64,000 nucleotides of DNA. It comes from an uncultured Geobacteraceae bacterium. Lineage in GTDB: Bacteria > Desulfobacterota > Desulfuromonadia > Geobacterales > Pseudopelobacteraceae. The stretch covers positions 1-64,000 of the forward strand of contig CAIUSO010000132.1 in assembly GCA_903901875.1 (NCBI GenBank), in the 5' to 3' direction. Under the pieces are notes generated by a model. The model saw only the letters and a list, made by a program, of their open reading frames with translations, ran no database searches and was not told where the DNA came from. How positions within the stretch are numbered: position 1 is the first letter of the stretch; every line of letters starts with the position of its first letter. The translations under genes and the position numbers were made by a program. Positions 12,802 through 56,062 of this stretch are shown piece by piece.

Positions 12802-13266
12802 ATGAACCCACCCAAAATTGAAACCAAAATCATAAATCCATTAATCGGCAGCAGTATTCCGCTCCCCTCATACGCCACCCAGGGTGCCGCGGCCATGGAT
12901 CTGCGAGCCTGTCTGGAAGAGCCGAAAACCGTTCAACCGGGGGAAACCGTGCTGATCCCCAGCGGCATCGCCATCAGCATCCACGATCCCGGTCTGGTGG
13001 CACTGCTGGTCCCCCGTTCCGGTCTGGGCATCAAACATGGCATTGTGCTGGCCAACACCATCGGGGTCATTGACTCCGACTACCAGGGAGAGATCGGCAT
13101 AGGCATCGTCAACCGGGGCACCGTTCCCTATACCATTGAACCGGGAGAACGGATCTGCCAGATGCTGTTTGTCCCGGTGCAGCAGGCACAGCTCTGCGTT
13201 GTTGCCGAATTCAGTCAGGAAAGTGAACGGGGCGCAGGAGGGTTCGGCTCTACCGGAAGCCGGTAG
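12802..13266 (+). CDS. dut: dUTP diphosphatase (dUTPase)
   Basis: Trimeric dUTPase, hydrolysing dUTP to dUMP and pyrophosphate to keep uracil out of DNA and supply dTMP synthesis. All five family motifs are visible: AAMDLRA (motif 1), PRSGLG (2), GVIDSDYQGEI with the catalytic aspartate (3), GERICQML (4) and the P-loop-like RGAGGFGSTG at the C-terminus (5). The length of 154 residues is typical. AGGA precedes the ATG by seven bases. It is the only plus-strand gene in the first 26 kb and converges on the degraded ppx remnant. Confidence 0.95.
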   Translation: MNPPKIETKIINPLIGSSIPLPSYATQGAAAMDLRACLEEPKTVQPGETVLIPSGIAISIHDPGLVALLVPRSGLGIKHGIVLANTIGVIDSDYQGEIGIGIVNRGTVPYTIEPGERICQMLFVPVQQAQLCVVAEFSQESERGAGGFGSTGSR

Positions 13267-13275
13267 GAAGACGCC

Positions 13276-13498
13276 TTATTCAAATACCACCGTGCCACCG
13301 AAGGCTTTTTCAAACAGATCCTTTTTGGCCGTTCCACCATAAATATCCACGGAAATATCTTCTGTACCGAGCAGTTTAACAAAGAATTCCGTGCCGTTTT
13401 TTCAACGCCACCACCTCAACCAATCCGCTCCGCCTCCGGTCAAAACCATCGGCCAGGCGGAGAATTCCCCCCAATCAACTGTCTATCTGCTGGTCCTC
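13276..13498 (-). pseudogene. C-terminal remnant of an exopolyphosphatase (Ppx/GppA) gene
   Basis: Read on the minus strand, the sequence encodes DRQLIGGILRLADGFDR, then RRSGLVEVVALK, then NGTEFFVKLLGTEDISVDI, ending KKDLFEKAFGGTVVFE and a stop at 13276. The ILRLADGFDR motif is the HD-domain signature of the Ppx/GppA C-terminal half. Two frame breaks are needed, one in a C6 run (13467-13472) and one in a T6 run (13397-13402); each is fixed by removing one base. Homology begins immediately next to the long hairpin at 13499, and everything 5' is gone. The gene at 55139 is a short homologue without this domain, so the lost gene was a separate copy. Confidence 0.7.
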
Positions 13499-13554
13499 GG
13501 CTCACAAAGAAAAGGCGAAGCCATTGGAGGGGCTTCGCCTTTTCTTTGTGAGCC
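13499..13554 (-). terminator. 24-bp perfect hairpin ending the restriction-modification operon
   Basis: Arms 13499-13522 and 13531-13554 are perfect reverse complements with an 8-base loop. The inner part is a terminator (GGCGAAGCC stem followed on the minus strand by TTTTCTTT), extended by a further pairing of GTGAGCC with GGCTCAC. It lies 28 bases past the endonuclease stop and faces dut, so it may stop transcription from both sides. The inner core is the same as in the pnp terminator at 16281. Confidence 0.8.
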
Positions 13555-13582
13555 TGGAAAACTCAGTGGAAGATAATGGCAC

Positions 13583-14320
13583 TCAGCACCGAGCCGCTTC
13601 CGCGGCAATATGCCCTGCAAGGGTGGTCACAAAAGTCTTTAACCCTGTCAATTCAGAAAGCTCCTTATATTCTCCCGTGGCGGAAGCAGAACGCGGCGAC
13701 ACAATCACGGAAGCCGTGGAATATAGCTGTTCTTGCATGAGCTTCCGACACATGATGTTATACCGCTCAGCATATGAAGCCCCGGCAAATTCAGGGAGTA
13801 GCTTAAAATGAGTCGAAGCATCACGCACAGGGGAACTGGAACCTTTGGCCTGCTCAAGCATCATCATCCAACCGACGAAAGGGCGTGTGTATTCTCCAAA
13901 AGCACCTTCACGGTATGCGGTCCAAAGATCATGAGCCGTTCCAATCGCCTCTTCAGCCCTGTTGTTAAAATTGGTACCAAAAGATGGCCCCACATGACTC
14001 TTAAACTCCAAAGCAGCGATTAGCCGTCCCTGGTTTATCACCAACATATCCCACAGCTTGGTAGGCCTGAAATACCCCGGCAACGTGAGAACTCGACGAG
14101 CTAAATGAATATCGGCATGTACAAGACCATTGGCGTGAACAATGTCCTTCACCAAGGCCAGGAAACCATCCATATTTTTACCGGCTGTAACGCTTGCACG
14201 TTCGCCCTGGTCCTGCTTGCCGCGCTCAACCTGCTTCTGCCGGGCAGCCTCACGGTTACCCCAAAATGCTTTTACAGCTTCACGGACCTTTTCTTCATAA
14301 TTCACAAGATCAATCGCCAT
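13583..14320 (-). CDS. PaeR7I/XhoI-family type II restriction endonuclease
   Basis: A 245-residue protein matching what I know of the PaeR7I family (R.PaeR7I is about 246 residues; recognition CTCGAG). Recognised blocks: the [12 protein letters not shown] start, [18 protein letters not shown], and the nuclease core [20 protein letters not shown] (about 88-107), where D, E and the lysine in EFKS form the PD-(D/E)XK catalytic set, followed by [17 protein letters not shown] and DLWTAYREG. It begins six bases after the methyltransferase stop. Cleavage of CTCGAG is a family-based prediction. Confidence 0.85.
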
Positions 14321-14326
14321 GCTACT

Positions 14327-16054
14327 CTATTTACCATTTCCGCCAATCGCGGACCTTTCCTGTTGTGACAATTCAAACAATTCAAACGTAGCTCGGTTGC
14401 AAGCCTCAATGTCGTCAGCCTTTGCTGCCTCAATGAGAGCATTTCGTAATCGTTCGGAAACGTCCGACCAGCGGGGAATGCGAATCCGCCTGAGATATTG
14501 CGCCTGGAAACGCAGATAGCCGCCACGCATCCGAGTTGAATAAATCGAAACAAAGAGCTTTGCAATGCCTGATTGCAACACCGCCTGGAGTGCGGTTAAA
14601 TCCCATTCTACTGCGGTGATGTAATAAAAATTGTGATGGGGGTACAACTGCCGGTCTTCATAAACTATATTGGCTTCACCTTTGATGTCGGGGATCAACA
14701 GTTTATGCTTCCTGGCAATTTCAGGAGTTATGCGATCAATGGTCTTGTACCAGTTTTTAGGGCTGTTTTGAGCACAATTCCTCTTACTGATCACGTCTCT
14801 GCGTTGTTCCAGGTATTCGGCCAGTTTGGGATAATCTGATAGATTCACAAGTGATCCATTATCATTGAATGGGTTTATCACTGCCATCCCCTGCCACTCA
14901 ACTTTCCCGTTTTTAATATCTTTGGTCGTAACAAGGGGAAGTTTGCGGTCAGGCACTACGTCCAACGTATCATAGTTGCCGATAAAGGCCTTGTCAGCTC
15001 CTGTTGCAACACCAATTCCGACCTTGCAACCAGTTTCTTCAAGGGCCGGAAATCTTTTCTCCAGACGCCGCACAAGTGCCAATTGGTCAAATGAATGGAG
15101 TATCCACGGCTCAGAGCCGTTTACAACCTTTACTACCTCCGTCACGCCGCGATCAACCGTAACCGCATTATTCTTCAAGGCAGCCGCAAGCTGTTTCAGG
15201 GTTGCCCGTTCTATCGGGGGACGATGAGCCAAGCGGGTTGAACCCGGTTTTTCCCGTGTAATGATGGTGATCGCAGGGTAAGCACTCACTTCCGATTGAA
15301 AAGCCGCTGTCTCAACCAAATCAACATAACATTTCAGGTGGAAACTTTTTGCGACCAGTGCCCGGAGCGGCCCGCCATAACGATTTTTCATCCAGCGATC
15401 CGCGCAAATAAAACCGAGTGTTCCGTCCGGTTCCAACAGTTTCAGGCTGCGTTCTATAAACGGTACATATAAATCAGCCCTGTCGTAAATAGTCTCAAAG
15501 CGTTCCCGGTATTCCGCCATGAGTTCATCGGGGATCAGCTCTTGCCGTACGTAAGGAGGGTTTCCAACCGTGAAAGTGAACAGGTGCGGCAACTCCACAA
15601 GTAGAAAATCACCTTCAATAATCCAAGCCGAAACCAGTTTCCCGGCGTCTTTTAGTGAAATCTCTGCATTCACCAAAAGCGTTAACAACTTCACCCTGAC
15701 TTTCTCGATACTGGCATGATCAACCTCAACCGCCCGTATTGCTTGCGCCAGGTCATCGAACATGCAGGAGCCCTCAAGACGGTTTTTGTGGTAGGCAGAT
15801 AAAAGGCGTTCAACGGCAACAAGAAGGAAATCACCATTCCCGAGGGATGGTTCAAGCAGCCGAAAATGGTATAGAGGCTTATCATCCGTATACCCTGAAA
15901 GATCCAAGATAAACTCGACCGTTTCACGGCGGGTATAAACAGCCCCACGCTCCTTGATTCCGGGAACAACCACAGGTTTCGGCTGTGGGTATACCGCAAA
16001 AAAGGGGAGTTGCCGTCCTTGGTCTATGGTGACATGCTTGTGCAATCCAGGCAT
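14327..16054 (-). CDS. N6-adenine DNA methyltransferase of the PaeR7I-type system
   Basis: A 575-residue type II methyltransferase. The SAM-binding region contains [28 protein letters not shown] (motif I) and the catalytic [10 protein letters not shown] (motif IV, N6-adenine type NPPY); the C-terminal half, from about 350, has the TaqI-like target-recognition arrangement with [13 protein letters not shown] and a final [14 protein letters not shown] block. It should protect the host at CTCGAG by methylating adenine. The start ATG 16054 has a close GGAAG site. No controller gene is visible in the 226-bp leader, and the methyltransferase precedes the endonuclease, which fits protection before cleavage. 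Confidence 0.85.
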
Positions 16055-16280
16055 TTTCTTCCGGCTTTCTCTCTTGAGCTAGATTTAACCTGAAATGTAC
16101 AACAATTTTGCCTCTGCTGATAGGCATTTTCGTTGTTGATAACTTCCGAAAAAAAGATGAACGAATCCCTTTTCAGCAGCTATCCGGCCTTCTGCCACCT
16201 TCTCCCACGGGGTGAAGGAATGAGAAAACTTGTAATCTTGGCTTTCACCGAGTCTCCGTGTGAGAACAGACGTTGACGAT

Positions 16281-16322
16281 AAACTCAAAAGGCGAAGCCG
16301 TTGGGCTTCGCCTTTTGAGTTT
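16281..16322 (-). terminator. Terminator of pnp
   Basis: A 19-bp perfect stem (16281-16299 with 16304-16322) and a GTTG loop, 17 bases past the pnp stop. The stem ends in A/U pairs (AAACTCAAAA with TTTTGAGTTT), giving a U-rich 3' arm on either strand. Its core AAAAGGCGAAGCC and complement are shared with the hairpin at 13499-13554; the restriction-modification genes lie exactly between. Confidence 0.85.
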
Positions 16323-16339
16323 AATCTGTGAAAAACAAT

Positions 16340-18448
16340 CTACGGAGTTTCGATCTTCGAGCCGTCCGGGTTAAGGCCAAGGGCTTCCTTGCGGGAGAGC
16401 TTGATCTTGCCGTTCTTATCAATTCCGATGCATTTTACCAGCACTTTATCACCTTCATTCAGGACATCGGTCACAACCTTGACACGGGCCGTATCCAGTT
16501 CTGAAATATGAACCAGACCGTCAGTGCCAGGCATGATTTCAACAAACGCACCGAAATCCATGATTTTACGAACGGTGCCCATGTAGAGTTTACCCTCTTC
16601 GGCCTCATCGGTCAGCCCGCGAATCATCTGTATTGCCAGGTCGCATGCTTCCTTGTTGGTGCTGGCAATATTGATACGACCGGTATCATCGATATCGATG
16701 GTAACGCCGGTGGTTTCGGTGATGTTACGGATATTCTTGCCGCCGGTACCGATGACGTCGCGGATGCGGTCGGTTTTAACGTAGATTGTAGTGATACGTG
16801 GAGCAAACGGAGACATTTCAGCACGGGGTGCTGCCAACGTTTCCGCCATTTTACCAAGGATATGGAGACGCCCTTCACGTGCCTGCTTCAGAGCCTGCTG
16901 CATAATCTCTTTGGTCACGCCGCCAATTTTGATGTCCATCTGCAGTGCGGTAACCCCTTCGGCCGTACCGGCAACTTTGAAGTCCATGTCACCCAGGTGA
17001 TCTTCGTCACCAAGGATGTCTGACAGGATGGCAAACTTCTCCCCTTCCTTGATCAGTCCCATGGCAATACCGGCCACCGGTGCGGTTACCGGGATACCGG
17101 CATCCATCATGGAGAGACAGCCGCCGCAGACGGCAGCCATTGACGAGGAGCCGTTACTTTCCAGTGTCTCGGAAACGATACGGATCGTGTAGGGAAAATC
17201 ATCATGGAGTGGCAGAACAGCGGCAAGAGCGCGCTCGGCCAACATGCCGTGGCCGATTTCGCGGCGACCGGGTCCGAGGCGGAAACTGGTTTCACCAACG
17301 GAGAACGGGGGAAAGTTATAATGGAGCAGGAAGCGTTTCCGTGAACCACCGTACAGGGTATCGATGCGCTGTTCGTCACTGGAGGTGCCGAGGGTTGCGG
17401 CAACCAGTGCCTGTGTCTCGCCACGGGTAAAGAGAGCAGAACCATGGACGCGGGGCAGAAAGCCGGTTTCGGTGGTGATGGGGCGAATGGTATCGGTGGT
17501 ACGGCCATCGATACGGATGCCGGTATCAAGGATGTCGGCACGAACCCGCTCATATTCAAAGTCACCCAGAAATGCCTTAATCCCTTTGGCCGAACCTTCG
17601 AACTCTTCTTTGAGAGCTTCAATGGTTTCGGCTTTGATCAGATCGATCTGGTCATGGCGCTCATTTTTCCCTTTCAGCTTGACCGCTTCGCCGATCCGGT
17701 CATAGGCAAGCTCACGAACCCGTGCCAGCAACACTTCGTTTACCTGGGCAGGAACCACGGTACGCTTGGCAACACCGGCCATTTTCTGCAGTTCCAGCTG
17801 TGCTTCAATCAGCGGCAACATCGCTTCTTTGGCAAAAAAGACCGCTTCAAGCAGATCCGCTTCGGAAACAAACTTCGCTTCACCTTCAACCATGATGACC
17901 GCGTCACGACTGGCAGCAACAACAATTTCGAGGTCGCTTTTTTCCAGCTGTTCGGCAGAAGGGTTGCAAATGAACTGACCCTCAACGCGGGCAACCTTGG
18001 CACCGGCAATGGGACCGTTGAACGGGATATCGGAAATCATCAGCGCAGCAGAAGCACCAAGCATTGAAAGGATGCCCGGGTCATTATCCTGATCGGCGGA
18101 CACAACGGTCGCAATCACCTGGGTGTCGTTCAGGAAGGTCTCGGGAAACAGCGGACGGATCGGACGGTCGATGAGACGGCAGATCAGGGTTTCCGGATCG
18201 GAAGGACGCGCCTCACGCTTGAAAAAGCCCCCCGGAATTTTGCCACCGGCATAGGCCTTCTCGGTGTAGTTGACGGTTAACGGAAAAAAATCCTGCCCCT
18301 CTTTTGCTTCTTTGGAAGCCACAACGGTGACAAGCACCACCGTATCGCCACAACTGACCACCACAGCACCACTGGCCTGTTTGGCCATTTTGCCGGTGGA
18401 AAGCGTTATCGTTCTGCCGCCAAACTCAACCTGTACACTCTGTTCCAT
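16340..18448 (-). CDS. pnp: Polyribonucleotide nucleotidyltransferase (PNPase)
   Basis: 3'-to-5' phosphorolytic exoribonuclease of the RNA degradosome. Two RNase PH-like domains (about 1-215 and 305-545) flank an all-helical linker; the second contains [23 protein letters not shown] and the catalytic [22 protein letters not shown] domain (about 555-615, [17 protein letters not shown]) and an S1 domain (about 620-690, [24 protein letters not shown]) follow. Length 702 is standard. It follows rpsO across a terminator-like hairpin, the same arrangement as in E. coli, where read-through and processing set pnp levels. Confidence 0.97.
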
Positions 18449-40035: not shown

Positions 40036-40055
40036 TGCACTCGCAATAAAGCAGA

Positions 40056-40163
40056 CCTTCCCCCTCCCCAGGAGGGGGAAGGTTAGGGAGGGGGCGTTTT
40101 CTGAGATTATCTCAACAAGATTCAAAACATCCCCCCTCCTGACCTCCCCCCGCTTGGGGGAGG
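40056..40163. repeat. Nested G/C-rich inverted repeats between convergent genes
   Basis: Three stacked palindromes: a perfect 12-bp stem at 40056-40067/40071-40082 (3-base loop), a perfect 8-bp stem at 40143-40150/40156-40163, and a looser outer pairing of GGGAGGGGGCGTTTT (40086-40100) with AAAACATCCCCCCTCC (40124-40139). A T5 run follows on the plus strand (40171-40175). The element resembles the CCCTCCC/GGGAGGG dispersed intergenic repeats of many bacterial genomes and probably also ends transcription from both sides. Confidence 0.75.
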
Positions 40164-55149: not shown

Positions 55150-56062
55150 CACATTCTCCTCCTGACAAAGCCAAACCTTCAAGCAACCCAAAATCGCTCA
55201 CCTTCATCCGTACGAAAGAAAAGCGGTCCATGACAGCCATCAGTATGAGCATTCCGGCTATGATCAGATCTTCCCGACCCTTTTCAAGTCCCTTGACCGC
55301 CAGCCGTTCCTGCAGGGTCAACCCGGAGAGTCGCGTAAAAATATCACCTATGGCGAGCCTGCTCACCGTCGCATTATTTACCTTACGGTAATCGTAATCT
55401 TCCATTTCCAGATGTACCGCAGCAATGGTCGTTGCGGTACCGGCCGTCCCCACCAACTCGGCATCGGGCGGCACCGATATGCCAGCAGTCTGTAGATCAT
55501 TCACCAGCTGATCGATCACGGATTCAACCCGCTCAACCATCCCGCCATGGGTCGGAAAGCCTTCAATCAGACGGACCACACCGATCGGCATGCTCCTGAT
55601 AAATACCGGAACACCACCGCGGGAAAGGGTAAACTCCGTACTCCCCCCTCCCACATCCAGAATAACAAGTGACTCCGGTTGACTGTCAAGACAGGAGAGC
55701 ACACCGGCCAAGGTCAGTCGCGCCTCCCGTTCACCATCGATAACTGCCAGCTTGATCCCACTTTCCGCCAGAGCTTCCGCAACGAAGGCAGCACCGTTCA
55801 CCGCATCCCGAACCGCACTGGTTGCCGAAGCATTGACCTCGGTAACACCGTACCGTGAAAGCAGAAGGGAAAATCGCTTCAGACAGGCCTGACCTCGTGA
55901 CCAGGCTTCGCCAGAAATCCCTTTTTCATCGGTAAAACCGCCACCAAGCCGTACAATCTCACGTTCAACATGAATCGGGGTGATCCCGCCCCCCTCACGC
56001 CGGACTATGAGCAGACGGGCGGTATTGGTTCCAAAATCCAGTGCGGCGCATAAGTCACTCAT
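55139..56062 (-). CDS. Short-form Ppx/GppA phosphatase
   Basis: Exopolyphosphatase or pppGpp phosphatase of the actin-like ASKHA fold. Two phosphate loops are visible, ALDFGTNTARLL near the N-terminus and LDVGGGSTEF centrally, with the connecting VIDGEREARLT and TAGTATTIAAV. At 307 residues it is the short form without the C-terminal HD-like domain, so polyphosphate or (p)ppGpp preference cannot be told. A GTG directly precedes the chosen ATG. It begins 17 bases after ihfB and overlaps malQ. Confidence 0.9.
   Translation of the reverse strand: MSDLCAALDFGTNTARLLIVRREGGGITPIHVEREIVRLGGGFTDEKGISGEAWSRGQACLKRFSLLLSRYGVTEVNASATSAVRDAVNGAAFVAEALAESGIKLAVIDGEREARLTLAGVLSCLDSQPESLVILDVGGGSTEFTLSRGGVPVFIRSMPIGVVRLIEGFPTHGGMVERVESVIDQLVNDLQTAGISVPPDAELVGTAGTATTIAAVHLEMEDYDYRKVNNATVSRLAIGDIFTRLSGLTLQERLAVKGLEKGREDLIIAGMLILMAVMDRFSFVRMKVSDFGLLEGLALSGGECDGK

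Follow-up and report, generated by a model that had tools for sequence, protein, structure and literature searches.

A PaeR7I-type restriction-modification (R-M) pair in this Geobacteraceae genome is bracketed by two copies of a local terminator, next to a broken ppx gene, an arrangement that is well supported by comparison with the sequences of relatives from the same genus. The R-M genes now occupy the former junction of pnp and ppx in the window, that is, the whole stretch of 64,000 nucleotides that was analysed. We consider it fairly probable that the locus was split at this terminator with duplication of the target, and that the two resulting hairpins were lengthened into palindromes by a fold-back process.

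The left hairpin (13499-13554) consists of the arm GGCTCACAAAGAAAAGGCGAAGCC, an 8-nt loop and the perfect complement of the arm, giving a 24-bp perfect stem. The right hairpin (16280-16323), with the arm TAAACTCAAAAGGCGAAGCC, a 4-nt loop and again a perfect complement, forms a 20-bp perfect stem and is one base longer on each side than the 16281-16322 of the original prediction. Both contain AAAAGGCGAAGCC and its complement GGCTTCGCCTTTT, which bears out the claim that hairpins with a common core surround the PaeR7I-type genes. A TTGG motif had been placed in both loops; it does lie in the loop of the left hairpin, but in the right hairpin part of it belongs to the stem. On the minus strand, the loops are unlike (CCTCCAAT on the left versus CAAC on the right). 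Beyond the common 13-bp core, the outer arms (11 bp on the left and 7 bp on the right) are perfectly paired and mutually different.

These are the longest perfect stems with a loop of 3-10 nt in the window; the third longest, at 40055-40083, has 13 bp and a 3-nt loop and adjoins a G-rich run. Both fold much more strongly than shuffled sequences (z of -9.9 and -9.4), and perfect stems of at least 18 bp are rare, six more being found in partly overlapping loci that total 1.85 Mb. The stretch common to the two hairpins is short (18 nt at 94%, or 13 + 14 nt exact), and when the flanks were compared for their longest common word, 8 of 300 control pairs equalled or exceeded the 14 nt of the window locus. 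The 13-mer AAAAGGCGAAGCC occurs in the 4.3-Mb window genome only inside the two hairpins, while a reversed control pattern gives three matches, and the joined pattern AAAAGGCGAAGCCN{3,12}GGCTTCGCCTTTT is found in one of 39 genus genomes, the window genome itself. The hairpins are therefore taken as real copies because of their genome-wide uniqueness and the evidence of the relatives, and not because of repeat length.

In relatives, the left border of the locus is formed by dut (dUTPase), which is intact in the window (12802..13266, plus strand; PF00692, 1.2e-31) and convergent with ppx. What is left of ppx (13276..13498, minus strand) is its 3' end, about 74 of about 508 codons, frameshifted and lacking a start; the gene beyond the left hairpin is thus broken, as had been stated. 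Homology to ppx runs from 13282 to about 13500, and a 2-base gap near 13400 shifts the frame. An apparent extension of this homology into the left hairpin (from residue 420) was attributed to chance, as two aligned ppx genes have no hairpin there. Compared with its relatives, the window genome has lost about 85% of ppx, the 5' part, up to the ppx-side hairpin. At 55163-56050, the window encodes a distant Ppx-like protein (about 31% identical), and two further genes of this kind (58-60%) are present at other places in the genome. Since other Ppx-like genes are still present, the loss may be tolerated.

Between the hairpins lies a type II R-M pair, whose endonuclease and methyltransferase genes are full open frames on the minus strand, 6 bp apart. 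The endonuclease (13583..14320, 245 aa) is of the XhoI/PaeR7I type, with PF04555 at 2.3e-91 and 305.3 bits against a cut-off of 25, PADLOC REase_II at 9.9e-114, and no match in NCBIfam. The adjacent adenine-type methyltransferase (14327..16054, 575 aa) is of the Eco57I/TaqI_C type; PF07669 (1.1e-20) and PF12950 (4.9e-9) are both above cut-off, and PADLOC MTase_II reaches 2.2e-244. The left hairpin starts 28 bp past the endonuclease stop. Just inside the right hairpin, 136 bp (16144..16279) have no counterpart in the R-M cassette of the relative G004 and no significant match among the compared loci. Beyond the right hairpin lies an intact pnp (16340..18448, minus strand), encoding polynucleotide phosphorylase with the Pfam domains RNase_PH, PNPase, KH_1 and S1. 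The right hairpin would end the pnp transcript and the left one the R-M transcript, termination itself being predicted from the sequence. The motif CTCGAG is absent from the 64-kb window against 6.8 occurrences expected under a Markov model; in 18.6 kb of a second contig from this genome it occurs once against 1.4, and presumed R-M-free relatives are also short of it, with 19 versus 39.2.

The significance of the two hairpins becomes apparent from the pnp-ppx junction in the genus, which was classified in 38 relatives from their loci, while 39 whole genomes were scanned for patterns. In 20 of the 38, pnp and ppx lie on the same strand, 119-138 bp apart, with a single terminator hairpin between them and a ppx frame open over at least 508 aa. 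This corresponds to the empty site that the original prediction had described (pnp, a single terminator and an intact ppx), and as judged from these loci such a site is widespread in the genus. The sequence of which these 20 relatives have one copy at the empty site thus stands on both sides of the R-M genes in the window, over a short common stretch, which is the pattern of a target duplication. The hairpin of the 20 intact loci has the form GGCGRRGCC-loop-GGCTYCGCC, with one change in G006, and TTTTCTTTT follows it in all of them. The pattern GGCGRRGCCN{3,10}GGCTYCGCCTTTT has 27 distinct occurrences, spread over 25 of 39 genomes and all located at the 3' end of pnp or on the 5' side of ppx; the scan is one of exact matching, which diverged hairpins escape. 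Two such places occur only in the window genome and in G004. As every place lies beside pnp or ppx, the terminator belongs to this one locus, and the concern that the core might be a common terminator of many unrelated genes does not apply; a terminator common throughout the genus is likewise ruled out. The junction, the single-terminator relatives and the restricted core together indicate that one of the two window hairpins was copied from the terminator native to this locus.

The C-terminal part of pnp has a match of at least 90% in 37 of the 38 relatives, G024 giving a weak match. The 18 relatives without an intact junction are G003, G004, G022, G024 and 14 genomes that have pnp but no ppx match of at least 72% identity; dut adjoins pnp in five of these 14. 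Neither pnp nor ppx was found in the compared loci of G024, and no hairpin of the GGCGRRGCC-loop-GGCTYCGCC form was found near pnp in G002, G012, G016 and G028. The pnp contig of G001 is too short for a hairpin call. Besides its intact locus, G017 carries pnp a second time, on a different contig and without ppx. In G003, pnp and ppx are 2.56 kb apart, with a terminator at pnp only. The G003 insert (L165:4041-6591) carries, on the opposite strand, a single-Cache gene (Pfam) and a chemotaxis-receptor gene (by eye).

The two copies can be assigned to their sides. The left hairpin retains TTTTCTTT. These eight bases begin the ppx-side tract that is conserved across the 20 intact loci, so the left hairpin looks like the ppx-side copy. 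The right hairpin looks like the pnp-side copy because it follows a pnp 3' UTR that resembles the pnp 3' UTR of G004. Counted outward from the arms, the window stems comprise 24 and 20 pairs without wobble, against 9-13 pairs in 18 of the 20 intact loci. The stem of G006 has 2 pairs owing to a change within the arm, and in G010 (L155, ppx upstream; intact locus) AAAAGAAAA pairs with TTTTCTTTT to give an 18-pair stem with one wobble, the inner arm AAAGAAAA being the same as in the window. The idea that the new hairpin arms are unique to the window is weakened by this stem. Given its equal inner arm, only the outermost 7 bp of each window hairpin are clearly new, and given its intact locus, lengthening of the stem needs no insertion. 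The case for duplication is unchanged by G010, as it does not rest on stem length. Reverse-complement copying of the flank is a natural source of longer stems, and may have produced those of the window.

The nearest relative of the window genome is G004, its sister in the tree, with 95.8% identity over 643 residues of three proteins. G004 has a terminator at pnp (C16) and another at ppx (C56, with a leader like that of the relatives), on separate contigs and with no R-M genes between; an R-M match was sought in its dut-ppx locus, and none was found. An empty site that already had both hairpins had been named as the observation that would overturn the predicted duplication on entry. G004 comes close to it, but it is not an empty site because its pnp and ppx are on different contigs. 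Its two copies without R-M genes between them suggest that the duplication may predate the R-M pair. Next to the right hairpin, on its inner side, G004 and the window gave no significant local alignment (693 of 2000 shuffles score at least as high), and we make no claim of a common inner flank there, the anchored shuffle fractions being 0.013 to 0.24 at five lengths. G022, which belongs to a different part of the tree, also has pnp and ppx on separate contigs (L166, L167) with a terminator copy at each, the pnp-side hairpin departing from the GGCGRRGCCN{3,10}GGCTYCGCCTTTT pattern. An HTH-domain gene precedes its ppx, and ABC-permease genes follow its pnp (by eye). The assembly of G022 is fragmented, and the contig with ppx could be a contaminant. 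The window genome, G004 and G022 belong to separate species, each represented by one genome. From these loci it would appear that either the terminator duplication predates the R-M pair at pnp-ppx, or a split with duplication happened repeatedly.

G004 carries its own R-M pair at a different place. The two copies have 90.25% DNA identity over 13589-16143 of the window and no further, which sets the bounds of the R-M cassette (13589..16143); since the homology is confined to this segment, the hairpins are not parts of the cassette. In G004 C12 (L097:1-5229), the pair and an ORF with a JetD C-terminal domain lie between direct repeats, followed by a phage-integrase-family gene. The repeats (142 nt, 99%; one copy begins at the contig end) hold a stretch resembling a tRNA 3' end and a hairpin with a 13-bp stem. 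ARAGORN found no whole tRNA in them, and the best match of the tRNA-like stretch in the window genome is a tRNA-Pro(CGG) gene. Judged by these features, the G004 copy looks like part of an att-type island with an integrase at a tRNA-like site. G020 C412 (L098:3699-3895) has the first 41 methyltransferase codons only, near a tRNA-like stretch and a hairpin with a 14-bp stem; a frame at the end of this contig resembles an integrase start (by eye). Divergence between the window and G004 at 4-fold sites is 0.276 for the methyltransferase and 0.292 for the endonuclease, with 0.213-0.368 for eight core genes. From this similarity, the R-M copies separated at about the same time as the core genes, and there is no sign of a recent R-M transfer between the two lineages. 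At least one lineage, that of the window or that of G004, has moved its R-M copy, unless both gained it separately.

XhoI-type R-M loci were surveyed for bracketing repeats more widely (81 loci including the window, of which six were dropped for flanks below 300 bp, leaving 75). An exact word of at least 17 nt across the R-M genes was found in 6 of the 75, two of the six words being 17 nt long, versus 0 of 300 control pairs. Among the four longest cases, the two contig ends of L226 are identical over 119 bases, and this contig looks circular. The repeats of L188 and L254 are diverged (80% and 76%) and taken to be coding, and only that of L176 (G004) is clearly of the att type.

It is possible, though we would not call it probable, that the terminator duplication is older than the R-M pair and independent of it. 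The ancestor of the window genome and G004 would have had the order pnp-T ... T-ppx, T being the terminator, separated by other DNA, and the R-M genes would have moved into the gap later. The terminators of G004 beside pnp and beside ppx, with no R-M match in its dut-ppx locus, favor this order of events, and the position of the R-M genes beside tRNA-like DNA in G004 and in the G020 remnant makes the pnp site look derived. However, the pnp-ppx separation of G004 is not ancestral to the window locus (pnp and dut 3.1 kb apart), which would call for two events in one gap, and the inner flanks of the two genomes are not detectably homologous. A second explanation is that the left hairpin belongs to the R-M operon as its terminator and has converged on that of pnp. 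Its distance from the endonuclease stop would suit this role, and the repeat length is not extreme, given the control pairs that reach 14 nt. Yet the 90% identical cassette of G004 lacks the left hairpin, in 39 genomes the core was not found outside the pnp-ppx locus, and the left hairpin bears the locus-specific TTTTCTTT; we have rejected convergence on these grounds as highly improbable.

The original prediction had further suggested that the terminator acts as an integration or recombination site, and it might accordingly be the attB of a lost integrase island, with the hairpins as attL and attR. Two copies around an insertion are indeed the att pattern, and the R-M island of G004 displays it at its tRNA-like site. 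That cassette island, with its hairpin-containing repeats, is comparable to tRNA-targeting integrase islands (tyrosine recombinase, att direct repeats), whereas the window locus has neither an integrase nor a long att repeat between or at the hairpins. No integrase and no ORF longer than 102 aa besides the R-M genes was found between them, two scans of viral contigs with hairpin patterns returned 0 stretches and hence no viral carrier, and inspection by eye of the ORFs listed for the gaps of G022 and G003 revealed no integrase (one ORF of each was Pfam-scanned). A dedicated integration site is therefore not supported, and an att origin of the hairpins is very doubtful.

We propose instead that the locus was split at the terminator with target duplication and subsequent fold-back lengthening. 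The ancestral order would have been pnp, one intrinsic terminator and ppx. A split at the terminator may have left a full hairpin on each side, and about 85% of ppx, its 5' part, would have been lost up to the ppx-side hairpin. The hairpins would then have become longer perfect palindromes by copying their own flanks, through template switching or fold-back synthesis, and the R-M operon would have come to lie between two strong hairpins. Split and duplication may have been a single event; this, its order relative to the arrival of the R-M genes and the mechanism behind the palindromes we infer. The prediction that the island duplicated the terminator on entry thus holds in that one hairpin is a copy; the R-M pair as its maker is possible but unproven, as G004 has both copies without R-M genes between and G003 has an insertion without a second hairpin. 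A bolder proposal, which we regard as unlikely, is that the pnp-ppx terminator is a recurrent break-and-duplicate site. Its loop would be opened by replication or hairpin cleavage, each half rebuilt into a whole, longer hairpin by fold-back copying of the flank on its side, and any joining DNA, such as an R-M pair or other genes, insulated between two terminators, the window, G004 and G022 being repeated outcomes.

According to PMC3031569, earlier work (Nobusato et al. 2000; Furuta et al. 2010) has R-M systems inserting with long, variable target duplications and linked to inversions and translocations, and the article itself describes IS-linked movement of a PaeR7I R-M system. The window R-M pair is similar in being flanked on both sides by a sequence of which relatives have one copy, and in belonging to the PaeR7I family. 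Unlike such long duplications, the duplicate in the window is a short terminator hairpin with both copies extended into palindromes, and the sister genome G004 has both copies without R-M genes between them. Template switching is described in PMC8794818 as making perfect hairpins whose stems are extended by reverse-complement copying, similar to the extension proposed here for both window hairpins. That study treats RNA genes, and the word "terminator" does not occur in its main text, whereas the window stems border an insertion. No title on terminators duplicated around R-M genes was found with the terms used in the limited literature searched, which is not a claim of absence.

The window locus is an instructive example of an event whose kind is known; what is unusual about it is the target and the length of the perfect palindromes. 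Together with the many relatives, it indicates that an R-M cassette can settle at a junction of housekeeping genes without a visible mobility gene, and that copies of the local intrinsic terminator can come to flank the incoming cassette on either side. If breakage and healing at the terminator did take place, terminators would be sites where a genome can be opened and rebuilt, with ready-made insulation of the newcomer.
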